Source of the DNA: an uncultured delta proteobacterium
GTDB lineage: Bacteria; Desulfobacterota; Desulfovibrionia; Desulfovibrionales; Desulfovibrionaceae
Direction of reading: 5' to 3'
Assembly: GCA_903835685.1 (NCBI GenBank)
Contig: CAILNX010000054.1
Span: 62,001-126,000, forward strand
Length of the DNA stretch: 64,000 nt
In this document: in pieces, positions 8,018 through 23,787 of the stretch
Layout of the letters: each line of letters starts with the position of its first letter
Numbering within the stretch: position 1 is the first letter of the stretch
The notes under the pieces: generated by a model
Database searches by the model: none
Told to the model about the DNA's origin: nothing
What the model saw: only the letters and a program-made list of their open reading frames with translations
Position numbers and translations under genes: made by a program

Positions 8018-8093
8018 GCCAGCGTAGCTCAGATGGTAGAGCAGCTGATTCGTAATCAGCAGGTCCGGAGTTCGAATCTCCGCGCTGGCTCCA
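8018..8093 (+). tRNA. tRNA-Thr (anticodon CGU)
   Basis: The 76-nt cloverleaf includes an encoded CCA. The acceptor stem is GCCAGCG/CGCTGGC, the D arm GCTC...GAGC, and the anticodon stem GCTGA/TCAGC with loop TTCGTAA, giving anticodon CGT (reads ACG). The T arm is CGGAG-TTCGAAT-CTCCG. A strong terminator follows after ten bases, so it is a single-gene unit. Confidence 0.97.
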
Positions 8094-8911: not shown

Positions 8912-9080
8912 GTGCTGGGCTCCCGGTGAGGGTATGGAATCGGGCACGGTCGCCCCATCCTCTGCTCTTTGATCTCTTCTAGCCTGTCCTGCGCAAAATG
9001 CCCACCGAAGAAGTGAGTGACCCCCAGATTTCTCTCTGTGCGTGCTGAACAAGGAATTGAGGCCGGGGGGGAAGAAAATG

Positions 9081-9109
9081 TTGACAGGCCCCAAGGCCGT
9101 ATTTATATA
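9081..9109 (+). promoter_or_regulatory. Sigma70 promoter of the first ars operon
   Basis: A consensus -35 TTGACA (9081-9086), a 17-bp spacer and -10 TATATA (9104-9109) lie just upstream of the arsR gene. The -10 box overlaps the start of the operator. Confidence 0.8.
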
Positions 9110-9126
9110 TCGCCATATGACGATAT
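9107..9126. promoter_or_regulatory. Palindromic ArsR-type operator
   Basis: The 20-bp inverted repeat ATATCG-CCATATGA-CGATAT matches its reverse complement at 18 of 20 positions. It overlaps the -10 box and probable +1, as expected for repression by the ArsR protein encoded just downstream. The operator role is inferred from position and symmetry. Confidence 0.65.
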
Positions 9127-9136
9127 GGAGGTACAG

Positions 9137-9487
9137 ATGAAGGCGCTGCTCAAGGCCACCAAGGCCCTGTCTGACGGCAACCGGCTGAAGATGCTCAAGC
9201 TTCTGGAAGCACGGGATTTGTGCGTCTGCGAACTCACGGCCGCCCTGGGCCTGGCCCAGTCCACGGTGTCCAAGCACCTGGCCCTGCTGGAGGACGCCGG
9301 GCTGGTCCAAGGGATCAAGGAAGGGCTGTACGTCAATTACCGCCTGGTGCGGGAGGGGGACTCCCCCTACGCCCGGCCCCTGCTGGACCTTTTGGCCGGG
9401 TGGCTCAACCAGGAGCGGGACATCGCGGCCCTCAAGGCCTCCCTGCTCGGCATCGACCGGCAGGTGCTGTGCCGGAGGCCTGCGTGA
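9137..9487 (+). CDS. arsR: ArsR/SmtB-family transcriptional repressor
   Basis: This 116-residue winged-helix repressor has the metal-sensing motif ELCVCEL-type (DLCVCELTAALG) in helix alpha-3, with Cys residues two apart as in ArsR of plasmid R773, and recognition helix QSTVSKHLALLEDAGL. Start at 9137 is preferred because GGAGGT lies four bases upstream; the ATG at 9125 falls inside the operator. It should dissociate from DNA on binding As(III) or Sb(III). It heads an operon of the ArsP-like permease, mini-thioredoxin, DGC protein, thioredoxin, CcdA-like protein, ACR3 and cytochrome. Confidence 0.92.
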   Translation: MKALLKATKALSDGNRLKMLKLLEARDLCVCELTAALGLAQSTVSKHLALLEDAGLVQGIKEGLYVNYRLVREGDSPYARPLLDLLAGWLNQERDIAALKASLLGIDRQVLCRRPA

Positions 9488-10623
9488 AACCCTTGCAGCC
9501 TCTTCAGTCCCCCGGGCCTCGCCAAACACTCCAGCCCCTCGGCCCCCTCGGTTTTTTTCCAGGAGCGCCCGCAGCCGCCCCGGCCCGGGAGGCGTTGGGC
9601 GGAAAAGTCTCCTGGGGCAGGCCCCTCTTGCTGGTCCCGATCCTGGTCCTCTGGGTCCTGGTCTATGGCCAGTTGGAGGACTTTTCCCGGGTCCTGGCCT
9701 TTCAGGTCCTGGGGCTTGAGCCCGGCAGCCATCTGGGCCAGGCCGTGCAGTTCTTCGCCTACGACACGCCCAAGGTCCTCCTGCTTCTGGCTCTGGTGGT
9801 CTTCGGGGTGGGCGTCCTCCGCTCTTTTTTCACCCCGGCCCGAACCCGGCGGATTCTGGCCGGGAAACGGGAGTCCGTGGGCAATGTCCTGGCCGCCCTG
9901 CTGGGGATCGTCACCCCGTTCTGCTCCTGCTCGGCCGTGCCTCTGTTCATCGGATTCGTGACCGCCGGGGTTCCCCTGGGCGTGACCTTCTCCTTTCTCA
10001 TCTCCGCGCCCATGGTCAACGAGATCGCAGTGGTCCTCCTTTACGGCCTCCTGGGCTGGAAGGTGGCGGCCATCTACATGGGTACCGGCCTCCTGGTGGC
10101 CATGGGTGCTGGTTGGGTCATCGGCCGGATGGGCATGGAAGAGCACATCGAGGACTGGGTCCGGCACATCCGGGCCGGGGCCGACGACTGCTCCGAAGGA
10201 GCGTTGGACCTCGCCGCAAGGGTCCAGTTCGGACTGGACGCGGTGCGGGACATCCTGCGCCGGGTCTGGAAATGGGTGGTGCTCGGGATCGCCGTGGGCG
10301 CGGCCATCCACGGCTACGTGCCCGAGGGCTTCATGGCTGACGTGATGGGCAAGGGGGCCTGGTGGTCCGTGCCCGTGGCCGTGCTGGTGGGCATCCCCAT
10401 GTATTCCAACGCGGCCGGCATCGTGCCCGTGGTCCATGCCCTGCTGGAAAAAGGCGCGGCCCTGGGCACGGTCCTGGCCTTCATGATGAGCGTCATCGCC
10501 CTGTCCCTGCCCGAGGCCATCATCTTGCGCAAGGTGCTGAAACCCCGCCTCATCGTGACCTTTTTCAGCGTGGTCGGGGCCGGGATCGTCCTGGTCGGGT
10601 ATCTTTTCAATCTGTTGTTCTGA
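9484..10623 (+). CDS. DUF318/ArsP-family permease
   Basis: This 379-residue inner-membrane permease begins at a GTG that overlaps the arsR stop (GTGA). After a Pro-rich leader it shows about eight hydrophobic segments in two halves. The family hallmark TPFCSCSAVPLFIGF in the first half and the matching GIPMYSNAAGIVP in the second mark a PF03773 permease. ArsP members export trivalent organoarsenicals; others are linked to mercury, copper or thiol export. A soluble loop with DDCSEGALD separates the halves. Co-transcription with arsR supports a metalloid substrate. An internal ATG is a possible later start. Confidence 0.85.
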   Translation: MKPLQPLQSPGPRQTLQPLGPLGFFPGAPAAAPAREALGGKVSWGRPLLLVPILVLWVLVYGQLEDFSRVLAFQVLGLEPGSHLGQAVQFFAYDTPKVLLLLALVVFGVGVLRSFFTPARTRRILAGKRESVGNVLAALLGIVTPFCSCSAVPLFIGFVTAGVPLGVTFSFLISAPMVNEIAVVLLYGLLGWKVAAIYMGTGLLVAMGAGWVIGRMGMEEHIEDWVRHIRAGADDCSEGALDLAARVQFGLDAVRDILRRVWKWVVLGIAVGAAIHGYVPEGFMADVMGKGAWWSVPVAVLVGIPMYSNAAGIVPVVHALLEKGAALGTVLAFMMSVIALSLPEAIILRKVLKPRLIVTFFSVVGAGIVLVGYLFNLLF

Positions 10624-10649: not shown

Positions 10650-10883
10650 ATGGAGATACAAGTCCTGGGGCCGGGATGCCCCAAATGCCATCAGACCTTG
10701 AAGGTGGTCCAGGAGGCCCTGGCCCAGGCCGGGGTTGTGGCCGAGGTGGAAAAAGTCACTGATTTTCAGGCCATTGCCTCGCTCGGGGTCTTCGCCACGC
10801 CCGGGGTGGTCATGGACGGCCGGGTGGTCTGCTCGGGCCGGGTCCCGACCCACGCGGAAGTCCTGGGCTGGCTCGGGAAATAG
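10650..10883 (+). CDS. Mini-thioredoxin / redox-active disulfide protein
   Basis: This 77-residue thioredoxin-fold protein has the active site GPGCPKCHQT at residues 8-16 and the cis-Pro loop FATPGVVMDG, as in the archaeal small redox-active disulfide proteins. There is no signal peptide, so it is cytoplasmic. It follows the permease by 26 bases, with AAGGAG upstream of its ATG. Such proteins commonly accompany DUF318 permeases. It may reduce the substrate or the ArsC proteins encoded downstream; this role is inferred. Confidence 0.88.
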   Translation: MEIQVLGPGCPKCHQTLKVVQEALAQAGVVAEVEKVTDFQAIASLGVFATPGVVMDGRVVCSGRVPTHAEVLGWLGK

Positions 10884-10917: not shown

Positions 10918-11340
10918 ATGTCGAACGCTTGCGCTTGCGGTTCGGAACCGCTCATGATCCTGGCCTGCTCCGGAGGGTCCAACGTGGGACAACTCACCAA
11001 CCAGGCCGCCGTGGAGCTGACCAGGGAGGGGCAGGGCAAGATGTTCTGCCTGGCGGGGATCGGAGCCCAGTTGCCCCCCATGGTCAAGGCCGGAGCAAAG
11101 GCCTCCGGCGTGGTGGTCCTGGACGGTTGCCCCATTGGCTGCGCCAAAAAGATCATGGAAAACGCCGGGCTTTCTCCAGGCCGTTATGTGGTGGTCACGG
11201 ACCTGGGCATCGAAAAAATCAAGGATCAGGCTTTGGCCATCCAGGCCAGGGATGTGGACGCGGTCAAGGCCGCGGCCCTGGGTTGCGCCCCGGCCCCGGC
11301 TGCTGAGTCCACCTCTGGGGGATGCGGTTGCCAAGGCTGA
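10918..11340 (+). CDS. DGC-domain putative zinc-binding protein
   Basis: This 140-residue cysteine-rich protein has the DGC motif in VVLDGCPIGCAKK, an N-terminal CACG pair, CSGGSN and a C-terminal GGCGCQG tail. These match the DGC family (PF08859), annotated as putative zinc- or metal-binding and often found beside metalloid permeases and thioredoxins. The biochemical role is unknown. AAGGGGG lies eight bases before the ATG. Its many cysteines could chaperone As(III) or hold Zn, but no direct evidence is visible. Confidence 0.85.
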   Translation: MSNACACGSEPLMILACSGGSNVGQLTNQAAVELTREGQGKMFCLAGIGAQLPPMVKAGAKASGVVVLDGCPIGCAKKIMENAGLSPGRYVVVTDLGIEKIKDQALAIQARDVDAVKAAALGCAPAPAAESTSGGCGCQG

Positions 11341-11387
11341 GCCCGGCTCCCGGCCAACTTCTCCCGACAGGCGACAAGGAGCATCTG

Positions 11388-11771
11388 ATGCGCTATTTTT
11401 CCCTGGCTTTGTGTGCTTTTCTCTCGCTCATGGCTTTCCCTGCCGAGGGAAAGGATGAGGGGCTTCCGGCCGAGATACCGGCCCCAGGCCAGGTCACCAT
11501 GGTGGACCTGGGAGCCAAGTCCTGCATCCCATGCAAGATGATGGCCCCGATCCTGACGGAATTGGAAAAAGAATATGCGGGCCGGGCCGTCATCGCCTTC
11601 ATCGACGTGCGGGAGCGGCCGGAACAGGCGGAAAAATACCATCTCCGGGCCATCCCCACCCAGATATTCTATGAGCGGGACGGCCGGGAACAATGGCGGC
11701 ACGAGGGGTTCCTGGATAAGGAGAGCATCGTGGCCAGGCTCAAGGGCCTTGGGGTGGACGGGGGCCAGTGA
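11388..11771 (+). CDS. Periplasmic thioredoxin-like protein
   Basis: This 127-residue protein has an N-terminal signal sequence (hydrophobic residues 4-17, ending near AEGKDE) and a thioredoxin fold with CXXC in AKSCIPCKMM, followed by the cis-Pro segment AIPTQIF. It should act in the periplasm. Its stop codon overlaps the start of the CcdA-like gene (TGATG), so the pair probably forms an electron relay in which the membrane protein reduces the thioredoxin. Nearby periplasmic targets are the multiheme cytochrome and the molybdoenzyme. Confidence 0.9.
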   Translation: MRYFSLALCAFLSLMAFPAEGKDEGLPAEIPAPGQVTMVDLGAKSCIPCKMMAPILTELEKEYAGRAVIAFIDVRERPEQAEKYHLRAIPTQIFYERDGREQWRHEGFLDKESIVARLKGLGVDGGQ

Positions 11772-12475
11772 TGGACCAGGCCTTCCTCGCCATCAACGCC
11801 TGGATCACCCAGGCCGGGGCCATGGCCGCCCTGGGTGCTTTTCTCTGGGGCCTAGTCAGCGTGCTCTTTTCCCCCTGCCACCTGGCCTCCATTCCCTTGA
11901 TCGTGGGCTATGTGGCCGGACAGAACCGCATCCTGGAAGGCCGGGAGGCGGCCGGGTACGCGGGCTTGTTCAGCCTGGGGCTCTTCGTGAGCATCGCCCT
12001 GGTGGGCGTCCTGTGCGCGCTCCTGGGGCGCATGCTCGGGGACGTGGGGCCGTTCTGGACCATGCCCGTGGGGGCCGTGCTCCTCTGGGTGTCCCTGGAC
12101 ATGCTGGGCGTGGTCACCTGCTCCATGCCCGGCAGCGGCCTGTCCCGGTTCAAGCCCAGAGGCCTGTCCGGGGCCTTCGCCCTGGGCCTGGCCTACGGGG
12201 TCCTGTCCGGGGCCTGCACCTTCGGGTTCATCGCGCCCATCCTGGCCATGGTCACAGTACAGAAGCAGGTGAGCATGGGTCTTGGCCTAATTCTGCTCTT
12301 CGCCCTGGGGCACTGCCTGCCCATCCTGGCCGCCGGAAGCTCGGCCGCTCTGGCCCGGCGAATCTTGGAAACCCGCGCGGTGTCCACGGGCGGGGCATGG
12401 GTCAGAAAATGCGCGGGCGGCATGGTGGCCCTGCTGGGCGTCTATTTCCTGATGCAGCCCTTCTTCACTGCCTGA
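11771..12475 (+). CDS. CcdA/DsbD-like thiol-disulfide transmembrane protein
   Basis: This 234-residue polytopic protein has about six membrane segments. The two conserved redox cysteines are in LFSPCHLASIP and LSGACTFGFIAP, the CcdA signature. It moves electrons from cytoplasmic thioredoxin across the membrane to periplasmic thiol proteins. The ATG at 11771 overlaps the stop of the periplasmic thioredoxin gene; a GTG three bases earlier is an alternative. The setting between thioredoxin and ACR3 suggests service to the metalloid system or to maturation of the adjacent c-type cytochrome. Confidence 0.9.
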   Translation: MDQAFLAINAWITQAGAMAALGAFLWGLVSVLFSPCHLASIPLIVGYVAGQNRILEGREAAGYAGLFSLGLFVSIALVGVLCALLGRMLGDVGPFWTMPVGAVLLWVSLDMLGVVTCSMPGSGLSRFKPRGLSGAFALGLAYGVLSGACTFGFIAPILAMVTVQKQVSMGLGLILLFALGHCLPILAAGSSAALARRILETRAVSTGGAWVRKCAGGMVALLGVYFLMQPFFTA

Positions 12476-12493: not shown

Positions 12494-13627
12494 ATGAACA
12501 CGGCCACGACCAAGAAATTGTCCTTTCTGGACCGCTTTCTGACCCTGTGGATCTTCTCGGCCATGCTGGTCGGGGTGGGCGCGGGATATTTCCTGCCCGG
12601 GGTCAAGAATTTCATCAACAGCTTCAATGTGGGGACCACCAACGCGCCCATTGCCGTGGGCCTCATCCTGATGATGTACCCGCCCCTGGCCAAGGTGCGC
12701 TACGAGGAGCTGCACCGGGTCTTCCGGGACGGCCGGGTCCTGGCCCTGTCCCTCGTCCAGAACTGGGTCATCGGGCCGGTGTTCATGTTCGTCCTGGCCG
12801 TGGTTTTTCTGGGCGGGGCCAGGGAGTACATGGTCGGGCTCATTTTGATCGGCCTGGCCCGGTGCATCGCCATGGTCATCGTGTGGAACGACCTGGCCGA
12901 GGGCGACCGGGAGTACTGCGCCGGGCTGGTGGCCTTCAACTCCATCTTCCAGGTGCTCTTCTTCTCGCTCTACGCCTGGGTGTTCATCACCGTGCTGCCC
13001 CGGGTCCTGGGCCTGGAAGGGGCCGTGGTGGACATCTCCATGGGCCAGATCGCCGAGAGCGTGTTCATCTACCTGGGCATCCCCTTTCTGGCCGGGGTGC
13101 TCTCCCGGTTTATCGGGCTCAAGACCCGGGGGAAGGAGTGGTACGAAACGAAATTCATACCGGCCATCAGTCCCTTCACCCTGATCTTTCTGCTCTTCAC
13201 CATTCTGGTCATGTTCTCCTTCAAGGGCGAGGTCATCGTGAAGCTGCCCTTGGACGTGCTGCGCATCGCCCTGCCCCTGGGCATCTACTTCCTGTCCATG
13301 TTCCTGGTCTCCTTCTGGCTCTCGCGCAAGGCCGGGGCCACCTACGAGCAGTCGGCCACCCTGTCCTTTACCGCCGCCTCGAACAATTTCGAGCTGGCCA
13401 TTGCCGTGGCCATCGCCGTGTTCGGCATTGACTCGGGCCAGGCCTTTGCGGCGGTCATCGGCCCCCTGGTGGAGGTGCCGGTGCTCATCGGGCTGGTCAA
13501 CGTGTCCCTGTGGATCAGGCGCAGGTATTTCCCGCACCAGGTGGCGACCCCTATCGGGGTCTGCCATGTGGCCTGCCCGGTCCCGTCTGAAGCCGCCCCG
13601 GCCAAAACCCATGGAGGCCCGGCATGA
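12494..13627 (+). CDS. acr3: ACR3-family arsenite efflux transporter
   Basis: This 377-residue transporter has ten hydrophobic segments of the bile-acid/ACR3 fold. Family hallmarks are [15 protein letters not shown], which contains the Cys essential for arsenite transport, and [19 protein letters not shown] with the conserved Asn-Asn-Glu. It exports As(III) by the membrane potential. AGGAGG lies seven bases upstream of the ATG. The C-terminus is longer than usual and contains two extra cysteines (GVCHVACP). The stop overlaps the cytochrome start (ATGA). Confidence 0.96.
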
Positions 13628-14829
13628 CCGCGCATCTGCGGGTTCTGCCCTTGGCGGCCAGGCTGTTTGCCTGTCTGGCGGCCCTGCTCATGACCGCCGG
13701 GATGGTCCAGGCCGGTGAAAAGAAGGTGGAGATCCGGACCCTCAAGGAACTGATCGCCAAATACAGCTCCAAGCCCTGCCAGAAGTGCCACCCGGAAATC
13801 TACGGGCAGTGGGAGAAATCCCAACACGCCAAGCCGCTCATGGGGTTGGGGGGAGATGTATTCCTGGCCCGAATCCTGAAGAACGGGCCATTGGCGATCA
13901 AGGACGGTCACAAGGCCACCAAGGAAAACCTCATCTGCGCCAAATGCCACCTGCCGCAGCTTCTGGGCGCTTCGGACGCCGTGGCCGCCGAACTGGCCAG
14001 CGCCATCCTGAACGGGGACACGGCCACCTTGGGCCAGCTCAACATCGGCTGCCCGGTCTGCCACCAGGACAAGGCCGTGGTGCACAGCCGCCCGGAACGC
14101 GGGGTGCTCTACGGGTCCAGGGACCTGCCCAACCACCCCGGAGCGCCGGTCAAGAAAAGCCCGCTGCTGAAGGACCCGTTGGTCTGCGGCCAATGCCACG
14201 GACTGGGGCCGGTCCTGGAATTCGAGCATCCCGAGCAGTGCGCCACTCTCTATGGCAGCTATCTGCACGCCTACATCCCCAGCGGCGGGACCCAGACCTG
14301 CCAGGACTGCCACATGAAGGGCAAGAACCATTACCTGCCCCCCAACTTTGAGAACAGGAACGAGACGGCGGCCTTGTACCGGGCTGCCCTGCCCCTGGAG
14401 GTCCAGGCCCTGGGCTATGTGTTCGCGAACGGGAACGGGGAATCCGTGCCGAAAGTGGTGGTCAAGACCAGGATCGCCAACAGGGCCGGGCACCGTATCC
14501 CGGACGGCTGACCGACCAAGACCGCAGTCGTCCTGGATGTGACGGCCCAGACCCCTGAAGGTATCCCCCTGTATCAAATCACAAAGATGTACATGCCTCA
14601 GTCTACAAACGCCCTGGGATCGGCCATGGTCCTTGGCCCGGACAAGAAGCTGGGCCTGATCCGGGACACCAGCATACAGCCCTTTGCGCCCCGGGAGGAG
14701 ACCCTGGAATTTGATCTGCCCCCGGGCGTCAGGGCGGTGGTGGTCAAGGCCGCCTTGAGCTACCAGCTCCGGCCGGGAGACGGGTACCCCTTGCAGGAGC
14801 AGGTGGTGAGGGTGAGCCTGGACCGGTGA
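13624..14829 (+). CDS. Pentaheme c-type cytochrome, probable selenoprotein (UGA at codon 296), ExtKL-like
   Basis: This 401-residue frame carries an in-frame TGA at 14509-14511. The reading frame is identical on both sides and both halves look coding, so the TGA is read as selenocysteine (Sec296, context RIPDG-U-PTKTA) rather than as a stop. The protein has a cleavable signal peptide (residues 1-34) and five CXXCH haem sites (CQKCH, CAKCH, CPVCH, CGQCH, CQDCH), then a beta-rich C-terminal domain. The layout matches what I recall as the (seleno)protein ExtKL cytochromes of Geobacter ext / selenite-tellurite loci; that link is from memory. A SECIS-like hairpin follows the TGA. The ATG overlaps the acr3 stop. 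If selenocysteine is not inserted, the product is a 295-residue truncated cytochrome. Confidence 0.8.
14527..14546 (+). promoter_or_regulatory. Candidate bacterial SECIS hairpin
   Basis: GTCGTC / GACGGC forms a 6-bp stem (one U-G pair) with an 8-nt loop CTGGATGT. The loop starts 21 nt after the TGA, within the range for bacterial SECIS elements, and contains GG. It lies within coding sequence, as bacterial SECIS elements do. No folding was computed. Confidence 0.45.
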
Positions 14830-14918: not shown

Positions 14919-15389
14919 ATGGACCGAGTCTTGTTCGTCTGCGTGCATAACAGCGCCAGGAGCCAAATGGCTGAGGCCTATCTGAAACTGCTGGGGGCCG
15001 AGGAATTCACGGTGGAAAGCGCCGGGTTCGAGCCCACGGAGATCAACCCCTTGGTGGTCGAGGTCATGCAGGAAGAGGGCGTGGACCTCTCGGAAAAGAA
15101 GACGCAGAAGGTCTTTGACCTGTTCAGGGCCGGGAAAATCTATAACTATGTCATCACGGTCTGTTCGGAATCAGCAGCAGAGCAATGCCCGATATTTCCG
15201 GGCATGACCCACCGGCTCCATCTGCCCTTTGAAGACCCCGCCAGTGTTCAGGGGAGCCATGAGGAACGCCTCCAGAAGACCCGGATCATACGAGACCAGA
15301 TCAAGGCCATGATCCAGGAATTCGTGGACTGGGTCGGTTCAGGAGGCACAACACCATTGGGGGACATGTGGGGGCTGAAAAAACCGTGA
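14919..15389 (+). CDS. arsC: Thioredoxin-coupled arsenate reductase ArsC (LMW-phosphatase fold), copy 1
   Basis: This 156-residue protein begins at an ATG eight bases after AGGAGG. The P-loop is CVHNSAR (CX5R, residues 8-14), followed by SQMAEA. The second and third redox cysteines are in VCSESAAEQCP, spaced eight apart against seven in the Staphylococcus pI258 enzyme. It reduces arsenate to arsenite through a Cys relay finally reduced by thioredoxin. A C-terminal extension (GGTTPLGDMWGLKKP) is unusual. It is separated by 90 bases from the cytochrome gene and may be its own unit or read through from it. Confidence 0.92.
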   Translation: MDRVLFVCVHNSARSQMAEAYLKLLGAEEFTVESAGFEPTEINPLVVEVMQEEGVDLSEKKTQKVFDLFRAGKIYNYVITVCSESAAEQCPIFPGMTHRLHLPFEDPASVQGSHEERLQKTRIIRDQIKAMIQEFVDWVGSGGTTPLGDMWGLKKP

Positions 15390-15857: not shown

Positions 15858-15952
15858 CAGGCATTGACCAGATATATTTGAGATCAGACCAGAGAGATGA
15901 TCCAAGGCTATGTGATGAGTAGTGCTCGGAAACAGTATCATTGGGGGGGATT

Positions 15953-16390
15953 GTGAGGCCTGAAGAAGTCGTAAGAAAGCGGGTGCTTTTCCTGTGTACT
16001 GGCAACTCCTGTCGCAGTCAGATGGCCGAGGGCTTCGCCCGGATGTTCCGAGCCAAAGACATGGAACCGTACTCGGCCGGGGTGGTGAAACACGGGATGA
16101 ATCCTCTGGCCGTGAAGGTCATGGCCGAGGCCGGGGTGGACATCTCGGCGCAGTTCTCCAAGACCGTGGAGGAACTGCCGGTCCAGGAGTTCGACGCCGT
16201 GATCACCCTCTGCGGTCACGCGAATGAGAACTGCCCCTATTTCCCGGGCAAATTCCAACGCCTGCACGCCGGGTTCGACGACCCTCCGGCCCTGGCGAAG
16301 GACGCCAGGACCGAGGAGGAGGCCCTGGGCCACTACCGCCGAGTGCGGGACGAGATCAGGGAGTTCGTCCGGACTCTCGCCCTAGAATAA
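15953..16390 (+). CDS. arsC: Thioredoxin-coupled arsenate reductase ArsC, copy 2
   Basis: This 145-residue enzyme has P-loop CTGNSCRSQMAE and redox pair LCGHANENCPYFPG with the seven-residue spacing of pI258-type ArsC. It shares only the core motifs with the first ArsC copy, so the two are not a recent duplication. GTG at 15953 is chosen because a G-rich stretch lies just upstream; TTG at 15941 is possible. It reduces arsenate with thioredoxin as electron donor. A second arsR gene follows after a 68-base regulatory gap. Confidence 0.93.
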   Translation: MRPEEVVRKRVLFLCTGNSCRSQMAEGFARMFRAKDMEPYSAGVVKHGMNPLAVKVMAEAGVDISAQFSKTVEELPVQEFDAVITLCGHANENCPYFPGKFQRLHAGFDDPPALAKDARTEEEALGHYRRVRDEIREFVRTLALE

Positions 16391-16458: not shown

Positions 16459-16803
16459 ATGGAGACAACCATCAGGTCGCTCAAGGCCCTGGCCGAGGAG
16501 ACCCGGCTGCGCATCGTCATCCTGCTGACCACGGGGGAGCTTTGCGTCTGCGATCTCAAGGAGGCCCTGCTTCTGCCTCAGTCCACGGTTTCCCGGCATC
16601 TCTCCCTGCTCAAAAGCGCCGGGATCATATCCGACCGCAAGGCCGGAGTCTGGACTTACTACCGGCTGGCAACCCCTTGCCCGTCACTGCCTTCGGGCAT
16701 GCCGGAGGGACTGGCCGTTCATCTGGTCAACAGCGGGAGGGTGCAAGAAGACTTGGCCCGGCTCCGGGCTTTTAAGGCAAGCAAAGAAAGGAAGTGTTCG
16801 TAA
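16459..16803 (+). CDS. arsR: ArsR-family transcriptional repressor (second)
   Basis: This 114-residue winged-helix protein has metal-sensing motif ELCVCDLKEAL and recognition helix QSTVSRHLSLLKSAGI. It resembles the first ArsR in helix alpha-3 but diverges elsewhere. The C-terminus ends KERKCS, adding another possible thiolate. The ribosome site AAGGAAT precedes the ATG. It heads the Fe-S / NrfD / molybdoenzyme genes, suggesting that the reductase operon is controlled by a metalloid; this is inferred from gene order. Confidence 0.92.
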   Translation: METTIRSLKALAEETRLRIVILLTTGELCVCDLKEALLLPQSTVSRHLSLLKSAGIISDRKAGVWTYYRLATPCPSLPSGMPEGLAVHLVNSGRVQEDLARLRAFKASKERKCS

Positions 16804-16824: not shown

Positions 16825-17580
16825 ATGGGTAGGACGCTGCCGATCGAGGACCCGTTGATCCGGATGCAGCGGGATTTGAAAAAAGCCAAGGCCGCCGACC
16901 CGGCCAAGGTCCGTTGGATCATGGTCATCGATCAGGCCAAATGCGCCGGGTGCCAAGCCTGCACCGTGGCCTGCGTGGCCGAAAACAAGCTCCCGCCCGG
17001 CGTGGTCTACCGCCCGGTCATCGACGAGGAGCTCGGCACGTACCCCTCGGTGCGCCGCCGGTTCCTGCCCCGCCCCTGCATGCAATGCGACAACCCGCCC
17101 TGTGTCGGCGTCTGCCCGGTCCACGCCACGACGAAGAACGAGCAGGGCGTGACCGTTATCGACTACAACCGGTGCATCGGCTGCCGCTACTGCCTGTCGG
17201 CCTGCCCCTACGGGGCGCGCACCTCGGACTTCGGGGAGTGGTACACGGCCAAGACCGCTGATGCCCCTGGCGTTCTGGTGGGCAAGACCGGCGCGGCCCA
17301 GGGCTATGAGGAGAATCCCGCCGCCGAGTACGGCAAGGAATGGGCCGCGCGCAGCCGCCGGGACTCGCCCATCGGCAACGCCCGCAAATGCCATTTCTGC
17401 CTGCACCGCCTGGCTGTGGGCATGCTGCCGGCCTGCGTGACCACGTGCATCGGCCGGGCCACCTTCTTCGGGGACCGCAACGACCCGGACGCGCTGGTGC
17501 GCGAACTCCTGGGCTCGCCGCGCATCCATCGCCTGAAGGAAGAGATGGGCACCAAGCCTGCGGTCTATTACCTGGGCTAA
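16825..17580 (+). CDS. 4Fe-4S ferredoxin subunit of a molybdopterin reductase (TtrB/ArrB-like)
   Basis: This 251-residue electron-transfer subunit has four Cys clusters ([35 protein letters not shown], and CHFC...CVTTC) expected to bind four [4Fe-4S] centres, as in DmsB, TtrB, ArrB and PsrB. There is no signal peptide; such subunits usually ride across with the Tat-exported catalytic subunit. It is followed by an NrfD-like membrane subunit after ten bases, then the catalytic subunit, giving the B-C-A order seen in ttrBCA. It should carry electrons from the membrane subunit to the molybdenum enzyme. Confidence 0.92.
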
Positions 17581-17590
17581 GGGGGGAGAC

Positions 17591-18727
17591 ATGGACGCAA
17601 AACGCAAGATGCTGATGATCCTGGCCCTGGCCGGACTGGCCGTGGGCGCCTTCGGCGTGGTCGAAGCGCTCATGCACGGAACGAACGCTACAGCCCTGAC
17701 CTCCTCTGTGCCGTGGGGGCTTGGCGTGGTCGTCTACCTCTACTTCCTCGGCCTTTCCGCCGGGGCATTCCTGGTTTCCATCCTGGTCTACGTCTTCGGG
17801 CTGAAGCGCTACGAGCCCCTGGGCAAGATCGCGGCCTGGGCCGTGGTGGTCACCGAGGTCTGCGCGGGCGGGGCCATCGCTCTGGATCTGGGCCGCTGGG
17901 GCCGCATGTACCGCTTTGTGCTCAGCCCGAGCCTGGATTCTCCCATGCTCTGGATGTTCGTGTTCTTCACCCTGCTGCTGGTCATCTACCTGCTCAAGAT
18001 CAAGGCCATCACCCAGGGGTGCGATGAGTGCGTGCGCAAGCTGTCCATCGTGGCCCTGCCCGTGGGTCTCCTCTTCTACGGGACCAACGGCTATTTCTTC
18101 TCGGTCCTGGCCTCCCGGCCCATATGGAACAACCCACTGGTGCCTTTCCAGTTCGTCCTGGCCGCGCTCCTGACCGGAGGGGCGCTTCTGGCCGTTCTGG
18201 CCCTGGCCTTCCCCCCGGAAGGGGATGACTATGACGGGCTCATGCGCGGCCTGGGCAAAAGCATCCTGTTCCTGCTCGTGGTCTTCCTGCTCGTGGAGGC
18301 CGTGACCATCACCTCCGGGCTCAAGTCCGGCAAGGCCGATGTGGTCGTGGCCATCAACGCTGTAGTCTGCGGGCCGCGCTGGTGGAGCTTCTGGATCATC
18401 CACCTAGTCCTGGGCGGGCTCCTGCCCTTCCTGCTTCTGGTCAAGAACGGAAGCGGCCCCAGGGACGTGTGCCAGGCCGGGCTGCTCATCCTGGCCACCT
18501 TTCCCTTTGCCCGCTACGACTTCGTCATCCCGGCCCAGGGCCTGCCCATGCTGCCTGGCCTGGATACGGCCTTCATTCATCCCCGCCTGAGCCTGTCCTA
18601 CTCTCCGGACATGGGCGAGTGGCTGGTGACTGTCTTCTTCTTGGCCCTGGCCCTGTTCGGATTCCTGATCGGCCCCAAGCTCATCCCCGCCCTGTTCGGG
18701 AGCAAAGAAGGAGACGCGCATGCCTGA
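17591..18727 (+). CDS. NrfD/PsrC-family quinol-interacting membrane subunit (TtrC-like)
   Basis: This 378-residue integral membrane protein has about nine hydrophobic segments of the NrfD/PsrC type, beginning with a helix at residues 8-26. SSVPWGLGVVVYLYFLGLSAGAFL-type residues in the second and third helices match the family. It would oxidise menaquinol and feed the Fe-S subunit. GGGGGAG lies upstream of its ATG, and its last eight bases overlap the catalytic subunit's start. Arsenate reductases of the Arr type often lack this subunit, while tetrathionate and polysulfide reductases have it. Confidence 0.9.
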   Translation: MDAKRKMLMILALAGLAVGAFGVVEALMHGTNATALTSSVPWGLGVVVYLYFLGLSAGAFLVSILVYVFGLKRYEPLGKIAAWAVVVTEVCAGGAIALDLGRWGRMYRFVLSPSLDSPMLWMFVFFTLLLVIYLLKIKAITQGCDECVRKLSIVALPVGLLFYGTNGYFFSVLASRPIWNNPLVPFQFVLAALLTGGALLAVLALAFPPEGDDYDGLMRGLGKSILFLLVVFLLVEAVTITSGLKSGKADVVVAINAVVCGPRWWSFWIIHLVLGGLLPFLLLVKNGSGPRDVCQAGLLILATFPFARYDFVIPAQGLPMLPGLDTAFIHPRLSLSYSPDMGEWLVTVFFLALALFGFLIGPKLIPALFGSKEGDAHA

Positions 18728-21700
18728 TCGCACCCGCAAACATACGTCCGAGGCTGGGACCGAAGAGGTCATGGATCGCCGCCGCTTCATGAAGTGCGCG
18801 GCCATGGCCAGCGGAGTGGCGGCCGTGGCCGGTCCCGGGGCCTTCCTGTTCCAGCAGCCCGGGGCCGAGGCCTGGGCCGCTCCGGCCGAAGGCTCGGCCT
18901 ATACCCATCACTTGCCGGAAAACCAGCTCTATACCGTCTGCCAGCAGTGCAACACCAACTGCGGCATCAAGGTCAAGATCGCGGACGGCCGAGTGGCCAA
19001 GATCGACGGCAACCCCTTCAACCCCTGGACCCTGGCCCCCCACCTGCCGTTCAAAACCGCCATGGCCGATGCGGCGCTGGTAGAGGGTGCCCTGTGTCCC
19101 AAGGGCCAGGCCGGAATCCAGACCCTGTACGACCCCTACCGCATCGTGAAGGTTCTCAAGCGGGCCGGGAAACGCGGTGAGAACAAATGGAAGTCCATTC
19201 CCTTCGACCAGGCCGTGGCCGAGCTCGTGGAGGGCGGCGACCTCTTTGGCGAGGGCAAGGTCGAGGGACTGAAGGACATCTGTCCCTTGAAGGACTCGGC
19301 CGTGGCCAAGGCCCTGGCCGAGGACGCCGAGGAGGTGGTCAAGAAGAAGATGCCCCTGGACGAGTTCAAGACCAAGCACGCCGAGAACCTGAAGTGCCTG
19401 ATCGACCCGGACCACCCGGATATGGGATTCAAGAACAACCAGTTCGTGTTCAACTGGGGCCGCCTCAAGGGCGGGCGCAGCGACTTCGTGCAGCGCTTCT
19501 GCTCCGGCCTGGGCACCAACAACCGCCACGGCCACACCACGGTCTGCCAGGGCTCCCTGTACTTCACCTGCAAGCTCATGAGCGACCAGTTCGTGGACGG
19601 CAAGTGGACCGCCGGAAGCAAATTCTACTGGCAGGGCGACATCGCCAATTCCGAGTTCGTACTCTTCGTGGGCACGAACCTTTTCGACGCCAACTACGGT
19701 CCCCCGTGGCGCGTACCCAAGGTCACGAGCGGGATCGCTGATGGCGGGTTCAAATTCGCGGTCATCGACCCCCGTTGCTCCAAACTGGCTTCCCGGGCCT
19801 GGAAATGGCTCCCGGTGACGTCCAACGGGGTCGGCGCGACGGCCATGTTCATGATCCGCTGGATCATCGAGAACGCCCGCTACGACGCCCGCTACCTGTC
19901 CAATGCCAACAAGGCCGCCGCCAAGGCGTCCAACGAACCCACCTGGACCCAGACTGCCTGGCTGGTCAAAGTCGGCGAGGACGGCAAGCCTGGGGCTTTC
20001 CTGCGCGGTTCGGACCTGGGCCTACCCAAGGATATTCGCCAGGACAAGGACGGCAAGGACTGGGAGTTCGACGCCTTCGTGGTCCTGAAAGATGGCCAGC
20101 CCGTGCCCTTCGACCCCAACAGCGAAGACAAGCCCGTGACCGGAGACCTCCTGGTGGATGCCGAGGTCAAGGGCATGAAGGTCAAGACCGTGCTCCAGGT
20201 CTACAAGGAGGCTGCTGCCGCCAAGACCGGGGCCCAGTGGGCCGAGATCGCCGGGCTCAAGGAGTCCGATCTGGCCGAGGTGGCGCAGGAGTTCACCAGC
20301 CACGGGAAGAGGGCGGTGGCCGACATTCACCGGGGCGTGTCCCAGCACACCAGCGGATTCTACAACGTGCTGGCCTGGATGTTCGTGAACATCCTCATCG
20401 GCAACCATGACCACATGGGCGGCATGTGCAAGGCCACCACCTACGATCCCTCGGGAACCAAGAAGGGCCAGCCCTACGACGTTGGCAAGCAAAAGGCCAT
20501 CAAACCCTATGGCATCGACATCATCCGGGGCGGCAAGGTCTTCGACAAGAGCACCCTGTTCGACAAGTTCCCGGCCAAGCGGGTCTGGTATCCCTTCTGC
20601 TCGGACGTGTACCAGGAGGTCATCCCCAGCATCGGCGACGCCTACCCCTATCCGATCAAGGCCTTGTTCCTGTACATGGGCACCCCGGTCTACTCCCTGC
20701 CCGCCGGGCACGCACTCATCGACATCCTCTCGGACGTGAAGAAGCTGCCGCTGTTCTTCGTCTCGGACATTACCGTGGGCGAGACCAGCATGTACGCGGA
20801 CTACATCTTCCCGGATCTGACCTACCTGGAGCGCTGGGAGTTCTCGGGCTCGCATCCCTCGGTGCCCTTCAAGGTATTCCCGGTGCGCCAGCCCGTGGTG
20901 GCCCCGCTGACCGAGACGGTCACGGTGTACGGCCAGAAGATGCCTTTGTCCCTGGAGACCGTATTCCTGGGCCTTGCCGAGAAGATGAAGCTGTCCGGGT
21001 TCGGCGAGAACTCCTTTGGTGAGGGCAAGCACCTGAAGCGCGAGGAGGACCTCTATCTGCGCATGTTGGCCAACGTGGCCTTCGGCGAGAAAGAGGACGG
21101 TTCGGACAAGGTCCCGGCCGCGAATGCCGAGGAGATAGCCCTGTTCGAGAAGTCCCGGCGGCATCTGCCGGACACGGTCTTCGACGCCAAGCGCTGGAAG
21201 GAGGCCGTGGGCGAGGAGCTTTGGCCCCATGTCGTCTATCTGCTCAACAGGGGCGGACGCTTCCAGGACTTCGCCAAGGCATACAAGGACGGGCAGTTGG
21301 CGAACAAGTACGGCAAGCAGCTCGGCATCTACATGGAGAACCTGCTCAAGACCAAGAACTCCATGACCGGCAAGACCTACCTGCATTTCGCCGACTACGT
21401 GGCCGGCCCGGTGGACTGCACGGGCAAGCCTTTGGATGACGAGAAGCAGGGCTTCGAGTTCACCCTGATAACCTACAAGTCCGTGGTCCAGACCAAGAGC
21501 CGCACCACGGGCAACTATTGGCTCCAGGCGACCTACCCCGAAAATGCCATGGAGATGAACAGCGTCGATGCGGAAAGGCTGGGCATCAAGACCGGCGACC
21601 TGGTCAAGGTGGTTTCCGCCTCCAACCCGGAAGGGACCTGGATGCTCCAGCCGGGCAAGCCCAAGCCCATGATCGGCAAAGCCAAGGTCATCGAAGGCAT

Positions 21701-21929
21701 CCGTCCAGGGCACGTGGCCTTCACCCTGGGCCATGGACACTGGGCCAACGGTGCCGGGGCGGTGACGGTTGACGGGGTGCTGGTGCCGGGCGACCCCAGG
21801 CGGGCCACGGGCATCCACGCCAACGCGGCCATGCGCCTGGACCCGGTCCTGAAGAATACCGGCCTCGTGGACCCGGTGGCCGGGAGCGCGGTCTTCTACC
21901 AGAGTCAGGTCAAGATCGTGAAGGCCTAA
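18720..21929 (+). CDS. Tat-exported molybdopterin oxidoreductase catalytic subunit (TtrA/ArrA/selenate-reductase group)
   Basis: This 1069-residue subunit has a twin-arginine signal (DRRRFMKCAAM near residue 19) and an N-terminal [4Fe-4S] motif CQQCNTNC...CPKGQAG. A probable molybdenum-ligand Cys lies in HGHTTVCQGS, and the molybdopterin-dinucleotide-binding domain is at the C-terminus (NYWLQATYPENAMEMN...). The length and B-C-A gene order resemble tetrathionate reductase TtrA and long selenate/arsenate relatives more than ArrA (about 850 residues). It would reduce an oxyanion in the periplasm. Location behind arsR suggests arsenic or selenium, the order suggests tetrathionate; the substrate is unresolved. 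A strong terminator follows. Confidence 0.88.
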   Translation: MPDRTRKHTSEAGTEEVMDRRRFMKCAAMASGVAAVAGPGAFLFQQPGAEAWAAPAEGSAYTHHLPENQLYTVCQQCNTNCGIKVKIADGRVAKIDGNPFNPWTLAPHLPFKTAMADAALVEGALCPKGQAGIQTLYDPYRIVKVLKRAGKRGENKWKSIPFDQAVAELVEGGDLFGEGKVEGLKDICPLKDSAVAKALAEDAEEVVKKKMPLDEFKTKHAENLKCLIDPDHPDMGFKNNQFVFNWGRLKGGRSDFVQRFCSGLGTNNRHGHTTVCQGSLYFTCKLMSDQFVDGKWTAGSKFYWQGDIANSEFVLFVGTNLFDANYGPPWRVPKVTSGIADGGFKFAVIDPRCSKLASRAWKWLPVTSNGVGATAMFMIRWIIENARYDARYLSNANKAAAKASNEPTWTQTAWLVKVGEDGKPGAFLRGSDLGLPKDIRQDKDGKDWEFDAFVVLKDGQPVPFDPNSEDKPVTGDLLVDAEVKGMKVKTVLQVYKEAAAAKTGAQWAEIAGLKESDLAEVAQEFTSHGKRAVADIHRGVSQHTSGFYNVLAWMFVNILIGNHDHMGGMCKATTYDPSGTKKGQPYDVGKQKAIKPYGIDIIRGGKVFDKSTLFDKFPAKRVWYPFCSDVYQEVIPSIGDAYPYPIKALFLYMGTPVYSLPAGHALIDILSDVKKLPLFFVSDITVGETSMYADYIFPDLTYLERWEFSGSHPSVPFKVFPVRQPVVAPLTETVTVYGQKMPLSLETVFLGLAEKMKLSGFGENSFGEGKHLKREEDLYLRMLANVAFGEKEDGSDKVPAANAEEIALFEKSRRHLPDTVFDAKRWKEAVGEELWPHVVYLLNRGGRFQDFAKAYKDGQLANKYGKQLGIYMENLLKTKNSMTGKTYLHFADYVAGPVDCTGKPLDDEKQGFEFTLITYKSVVQTKSRTTGNYWLQATYPENAMEMNSVDAERLGIKTGDLVKVVSASNPEGTWMLQPGKPKPMIGKAKVIEGIRPGHVAFTLGHGHWANGAGAVTVDGVLVPGDPRRATGIHANAAMRLDPVLKNTGLVDPVAGSAVFYQSQVKIVKA

Positions 21930-23322: not shown

Positions 23323-23787
23323 TTATCCCTTGGAGCAGCAACCGCAGGTCAGAGCTTGGCCGCCCCCTTCCTGGCTTCCGAGCAGGTCCCAGAGCAGGCC
23401 AGCCGCCCTGGCCGTGAGGCGCTTGCACTGCTCCATGTTCTCCTGGGGTCCCAGGGCCTCGAGCACCTCCTTGCAGCGGATGCGTCCGCACAGTCCCTCG
23501 AAGCGGCTCCGGTATTGGGCGGCAGAGGCCGCCACGGCGTCCCAGTTCTCACCAGCCTGGGAGCGGCCGTTCAGCAGGCCCAGGGCCATGAGCCCGCCCG
23601 AGAGGGCCCCGCACATCTCCTCCTGGCTCCGGCCCACCCCGCCCCCGAAGGCCGTGGCCATTCTGGGCGTGACTGCGTTGCCAGGGTTCCCTGAGGCCTC
23701 CATGATGGCCGCCAGCACGGATTCCGCGCAGTGCAGCCCGCCCTGGAAAAAGTCATAGGCCCGTTGCTCCACCTGTTCCGTGTTCAT
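23323..23787 (-). CDS. C_GCAxxG_C_C family redox/metal protein
   Basis: This 154-residue protein matches the C_GCAxxG_C_C family: GGLHCAESVL near the N-terminus, ATAFGGGVGRSQEEMCGALSGG in the middle, CGRIRC later, and a cysteine-rich tail LTCGCCSKG. Family members are short, cysteine-rich and probably bind a metal or Fe-S centre; their function is unknown. The gene is divergent from a LysR-type regulator 156 bases away, which likely controls it. Start at 23787 has GGAGAACG upstream. Confidence 0.9.
   Translation of the reverse strand: MNTEQVEQRAYDFFQGGLHCAESVLAAIMEASGNPGNAVTPRMATAFGGGVGRSQEEMCGALSGGLMALGLLNGRSQAGENWDAVAASAAQYRSRFEGLCGRIRCKEVLEALGPQENMEQCKRLTARAAGLLWDLLGSQEGGGQALTCGCCSKG

Follow-up and report, generated by a model that had tools for sequence, protein, structure and literature searches.

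An ExtKL-family pentaheme cytochrome c with an in-frame UGA, most likely selenocysteine, lies in an arsenic gene cluster that recurs along one branch of the family

ExtKL is a known family of multiheme c-type cytochrome selenoproteins, which a 2026 review lists among its tabulated selenoproteins (PMC13188914). The member from Geobacter sulfurreducens (GSU2937-2936) has five hemes, and in the locus descriptions of two reports a TGA separates extK and extL (PMC5877670, PMC6148476); as laid out in the first of them, the gene belongs to extHIJKLMNOPQS, together with a porin, a rhodanese and multiheme cytochromes. Selenocysteine in this family is already known. A homologue has also been solved, the multiheme cytochrome c selenoprotein MccSep (PDB 9WT8-9WTC; wild type and the U325A mutant), for which our literature search found no publication.

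We analysed a 64,000-nucleotide stretch of DNA (the window), in which a single gene at positions 13624-14829 of the plus strand encodes a pentaheme cytochrome c whose reading frame contains a UGA. The original prediction had described such a gene, with the same frame on both sides of the UGA and coding on to 14829, and both points held. The frame is open from the ATG at 13624 through the TGA at 14509-14511 (codon 296) to the terminal TGA at 14827-14829, giving 401 aa with Sec296 when the first TGA is read through. Five CXXCH motifs were located from the translation and the alignment (residues 52-56, 105-109, 143-147, 188-192 and 226-230), all of them N-terminal of codon 296. Standard-code ORF calling breaks the gene in two at the UGA. 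The frame is no product of chance, for a single HMM match passes through the UGA (residues 17-384) and homologues share the UGA column. This match is to the equivalog NF040886 (“multiheme c-type cytochrome (seleno)protein ExtKL”) with 412.9 bits against a cut-off of 250, which bears out the resemblance to ExtKL that had been suggested; judged by its sequence, the window gene is a member of the known ExtKL family.

The window protein is like Geobacter ExtKL in its five hemes, in passing the equivalog cut-off and in the UGA within the gene. The settings differ, since the window gene is found in an arsenic cluster with ACR3, thioredoxin and CcdA genes and the Geobacter gene in the ext cluster. 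MccSep was matched by phmmer with E-values of 3.5e-66 and 6.1e-66; where the window has the UGA, one of its sequences shows X and that of the U325A mutant shows Ala, and it differs by insertions relative to the profile. The predicted model of the window protein (mean pLDDT 81.3, pTM 0.77; residues 196-206 with pLDDT < 50) contains an N-terminal helix at residues 10-29, and the cytochrome is probably periplasmic. Its top VIA-align match was the pentaheme cytochrome c552 of Thermochromatium tepidum (PDB 5ZE8; Z 21.1, 3.2 A, 299 residues aligned), which likewise has a His at the His290 column but differs in having Ala, neither Sec nor Cys, at the UGA column. The 50 Foldseek matches listed were chiefly single-domain ones and did not include 5ZE8. 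MccSep was in neither the Foldseek nor the VIA-align match list, which is not evidence against its homology.

The cytochrome had been predicted to sit directly behind ACR3 in an arsenic operon. It turned out that its ATG lies within the stop of the ACR3 arsenite exporter gene (12494-13627; TIGR00832, 454.1 bits, cut-off 282.8), and this ATGA overlap suggests translational coupling. Gene content supports the label of an arsenic operon, and the identified neighbours of the cytochrome are ars genes. Upstream and on the same plus strand, the block before ACR3 begins with an ArsR/SmtB-family regulator (9017-9487; NF033788, 81.9 bits, cut-off 55), an ArsP_1 or SaoE-like permease (9514-10623; PF03773, 253 bits, cut-off 32.3; SaoE with 142.1 and SO_0444 with 104.7 bits were both below cut-off) and an ArsE-family small thioredoxin (10650-10883; TIGR00412, 90.4 bits, cut-off 62). 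These are followed by a DGC-domain protein (10918-11340; PF08859, 114 bits), a thioredoxin-like protein (11322-11771; PF00085, 54 bits), probably exported as judged by eye from its hydrophobic N-terminus, and a CcdA/DsbD-like membrane protein (11768-12475; PF02683, 48.2 bits; 37.9 bits to the ArsG model, below its cut-off of 200). Downstream, again on the plus strand, there are two ArsC-like proteins, the first resembling thioredoxin-type arsenate reductases (14919-15389, 115.0 bits; 15941-16390, 150.6 bits; both below the TIGR02691 (arsC_pI258) cut-off of 174.3), and a second ArsR-like regulator (16459-16803), whose tblastn matches coincide in position with those of the first regulator. A response regulator is also among the downstream genes.

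A tRNA-Thr(CGT) gene (8018-8093) precedes the ars block by about 0.9 kb. A search of the window for a repeat of the 3' end of this tRNA gene found none, so no integration site is shown for the island. Besides, a C_GCAxxG_C_C redox protein is encoded at 23326-23787 on the minus strand (PF09719, 81.8 bits), a family listed with a selenoprotein form in the table of the 2026 review (PMC13188914).

For the comparison within the family, a contig search gave 78 loci; L032-L087 (n=56) failed the phmmer limit of 1e-8 and enter no count, and L145 yielded no row. The final alignment and tree have 77 rows, which are 73 distinct frames plus more genomes, minus four fragments (two of L020, L021, one of L115). 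The window-like proteins form a clade of 23 rows with an SH-aLRT of 98, in a tree built by a quick method that gave a long-branch warning. A locus was labelled as arsenic-type by our own rule, when it had an ACR3 match, or CcdA together with an ArsE-type thioredoxin, or at least three of ArsC1, ArsC2, ACR3, Trx, CcdA, Trx0 and DGC. The genes were searched by tblastn (1e-5) with window queries, which misses ArsB-type pumps and favours the window's own kin. Among the 23 clade rows, 17 were arsenic-type, 2 partial and 4 without such genes, compared with 1 (L157), 3 and 50 among the 54 rows outside, many rows of both groups being short-flanked. When only loci flanked by at least 5.5 kb to the left and to the right are counted, the label is found in 10 of 12 clade loci, the window included, versus 1 of 32 outside (Fisher p 2.8e-7, with kinship ignored), and it changes 3 times on the tree among well-flanked rows and 7 times over all 77. 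The predicted tie to arsenic export stands as a gene neighbourhood only, one that recurs in the clade.

The clade rows carry the family codes f1, f10, f16, f49, f56 and f108, with 10 of the 23 from f16. In 14 of the 23, a thioredoxin-like and a CcdA-like gene both lie upstream of the cytochrome, with midpoints 0.9-2.7 kb apart; L136 and L137 have the same upstream arrangement and no ACR3 match. The two well-flanked exceptions are L134, which has no ars gene match within 6 kb, and L133, which has only an ArsR match, while the short-flanked rows scored as none or partial are L183, L184, L185 and L138. The arsenic-cluster version is one ExtKL branch, usually accompanied by ACR3, thioredoxin-like and CcdA-like proteins. 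Our literature search, which covered titles and abstract openings of the papers listed, with subscription journals mostly outside its coverage, found no earlier report of a recurrent link between ExtKL and arsenic genes; nor did these titles and abstract openings connect any multiheme selenoprotein with a function in arsenic metabolism. The protein family itself is known, and the recurrent arsenic-gene clade seems to be the new part.

PhnD-family periplasmic binding proteins (PF12974) are also encoded at two of the loci (L147:4162-7336 and L183:1600-2679), and the one in L147 adjoins a HAMP/sigma-54 regulator and is divergent from extKL. These proteins may resemble the AioX arsenite sensor family.

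Of 395 genomes sampled in the phylum, 40 had ExtKL over the cut-off; the same was true in 11 of 21 genomes in one order (that of G282) and 7 of 18 in another (that of G102), and in only 1 of 288 genomes of the window's own family, which is the window genome itself. This last count suggests that the module moves between lineages, and lateral acquisition would be the simplest reading. None of 72,556 plasmid records matched cytochrome residues 1-295, and 659 matched ACR3.

We consider it probable that the window gene encodes an ExtKL/MccSep-type pentaheme cytochrome c with selenocysteine at UGA 296, which belongs to the arsenic-cluster branch and performs Se/S-heme redox chemistry on a periplasmic metalloid beside ACR3. 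Its likely role would be that of a periplasmic selenocysteine/heme oxidoreductase for metalloid detoxification. The strongest competitor is that the cytochrome is a general sulfur, selenium or tellurium redox protein which merely travels in metalloid islands and whose substrate is other than arsenic. The 50 of 54 rows outside the clade without a window-like neighbour gene (many with short flanks) speak for it, as does the clade member L133, which has rhodanese and TauE-type exporter genes beside its ArsR; the G. sulfurreducens authors, from preliminary work, suggest a role in selenite reduction (PMC5877670). Against it are the arsenic neighbourhood at most well-flanked clade loci, with its few changes on the tree, and the overlap with ACR3 in the window, and we regard it as unlikely, yet deserving serious attention.

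How a metalloid oxidoreductase of this kind might work can be drawn from the alignment and the model. Outside the CXXCH motifs, histidines 68 (one row gapped), 171, 236 and 290 are invariant in the 77-row alignment, and so is Cys206. With five hemes and four such histidines, one heme probably has no His sixth ligand, where the count of four leans on the alignment because His171 is invariant in the 77 rows but not in a 21-row alignment. A study of cable bacteria groups its ExtKL-like pentaheme family, sPHC, with cytochromes in which at least one heme is pentacoordinate (PMC11976967). Sec296 comes six residues after His290, on a loop that belongs to the C-terminal beta domain. The five hemes would carry electrons, and Sec296 with the invariant Cys206 would be the best candidates for a redox or metalloid-binding site at the heme lacking a His sixth ligand. 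Electrons could be exchanged between this Se/S site and the heme chain, the thioredoxin/CcdA pair could re-reduce the site, and the protein may in this way transform or buffer periplasmic arsenic (or Se/Te/S) species beside the ACR3 exporter.

A bolder version is that this ExtKL branch, probably laterally moved too, is a dedicated arsenic enzyme, a periplasmic Sec-heme protein re-reduced by the co-encoded thioredoxin/CcdA and converting arsenic species outside the ACR3 pump. We put it forward tentatively, at somewhat less than even chances. If true, it would add a step so far new to ars systems and would assign a multiheme selenoprotein to arsenic metabolism. Through the arsenic link, a selenoprotein family that is poorly understood acquires a physiological setting open to testing. 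The link also suggests that some anaerobes may need a supply of selenium to detoxify arsenic; ars operons may include a periplasmic redox step which standard gene calling cuts at the UGA.

The thioredoxin/CcdA pair could have another use. CcdA/DsbD-type proteins are known parts of cytochrome c maturation, for which PF02683 is named, and the pair might serve heme attachment to the cytochrome by reducing apocytochrome thiols, with no action on Sec296. One genomic maturation set is normally enough for other multiheme proteins, however, and the best NCBIfam match of the CcdA-like protein is ArsG, though below cut-off, so we find this use of the pair improbable.

A last functional alternative comes from the TtrA-like molybdoenzyme genes 3 kb downstream of the cytochrome, arranged B-C-A at 16825-21929 of the plus strand (an Fe-S subunit, PF13247; an NrfD subunit, PF03916; and a molybdopterin subunit of 1069 aa). 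The product of 18720-21929 reached neither identity that was sought, with 449.7 bits to TtrA (NF011567, cut-off 1750) and 111 bits to ArrA (NF041714, cut-off 1600). This possible arsenate or tetrathionate reductase might have the cytochrome as its electron partner. In its favour, subunit genes lie at most some 9 kb from ExtKL in the window and in L131, L147 and L182 (only B and C in L182), with a B-like subunit in L139. But no match to the molybdoenzyme was found in 20 of the 23 clade rows, some of them short-flanked, and enzymes of this kind reach the quinones through an NrfD subunit of their own, which makes the partnership quite improbable in our judgement. Relatives of the 1069-aa subunit (59-66%) lie near ExtKL in L131 and L147.

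The sequence context of codon 296 had been said to fit a Cys-to-Sec position. In the 77-row alignment the column, within the motif GHxxPDG(U/C), holds U in 71 rows, C in 4, I in 1 and V in 1, that is, UGA or Cys in 75 of 77 rows, and the context claim is upheld. L142 is scored as a Cys row despite one TAA in frame. An earlier set of 73 distinct frames gave U 64, C 4, I 1, V 1 and gap 3. Each U row of that set has one UGA within the matched stretch, at the Sec column, and this is true for that stretch only because the sequences were trimmed at the first TGA before and after it.

The genes for the selenocysteine machinery, named in the prediction as a check, are all in the window genome, where SelA (550.2 bits), SelB (368.4), SelD (347) and tRNA-Sec (82.7) scored over their cut-offs. 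The selD gene (G000:C43:153392-154312) and three formate dehydrogenase genes (G000 C39, C64 and C26) have one in-frame TGA each, which suggests that this genome regularly recodes UGA. Among 31 of the 49 other genomes over the ExtKL cut-off, chosen by us, SelA was found in 29 and SelB in 29, with none lacking both; all 21 good-quality genomes of these 31 contain SelA and SelB.

Behind the UGA there is a SECIS-like hairpin at 14527-14546 of the plus strand, with the stem GUCGUC/GACGGC and the loop CUGGAUGU. It starts 16 nt after the UGA, and nt 16-21 are paired with nt 30-35. Folding energy of the window hairpin alone is uninformative (ordinary for the gene, percentile 0.78, z +1.18), so the stem was tested across the family against 300 synonymous reshuffles with the codons of each gene itself, on 64 UGA and 6 non-UGA rows that exclude later-fetched loci. 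The full six-pair stem was intact in 47 of the 64 UGA rows against a mean of 7.4 and a maximum of 14 in the reshuffles, so the hairpin is significant at the family level, whereas in the window alone it is not (six pairs reached in 16% of reshuffles). The full stem is lacking in the other 17 UGA rows, one of which has 2 of 6 pairs. In the non-UGA rows the full stem occurred in 0 of 6 (0.16 expected), with pairs at the reshuffled level (21 versus 19.8). At one position the window pairs C with G while 58 of 64 rows pair G with C, and neither of the two changes alters the protein. The folding percentile within the gene has a median of 0.18 in the 64 UGA rows (19 below 0.1) and is 0.50-0.94 in the six non-UGA rows.

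On the column counts, the family hairpin and the genomic machinery, UGA 296 is most likely translated as selenocysteine via SelA, SelB, SelD, tRNA-Sec and the downstream hairpin, as had been proposed. The rival reading of codon 296 as a genuine stop or a fault of the assembly, with a 295-aa pentaheme product and the downstream 96-aa ORF as a separate gene or debris, may draw on the split made by standard ORF calling, as in the extK/extL gene names of the Geobacter annotation (PMC6148476), and on the unremarkable folding energy in the window, but we reject it on the homologues with UGA at the same column, and the hairpin above reshuffling in UGA rows only, the machinery and the X of solved MccSep at that column also oppose it, which leaves it with hardly any probability.

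L127 (G027 C12:96118-98740) holds two tandem ExtKL paralogues without UGA, with Ile at the Sec column in one and Cys in the other, and the genome of L127 also has a UGA copy of ExtKL.
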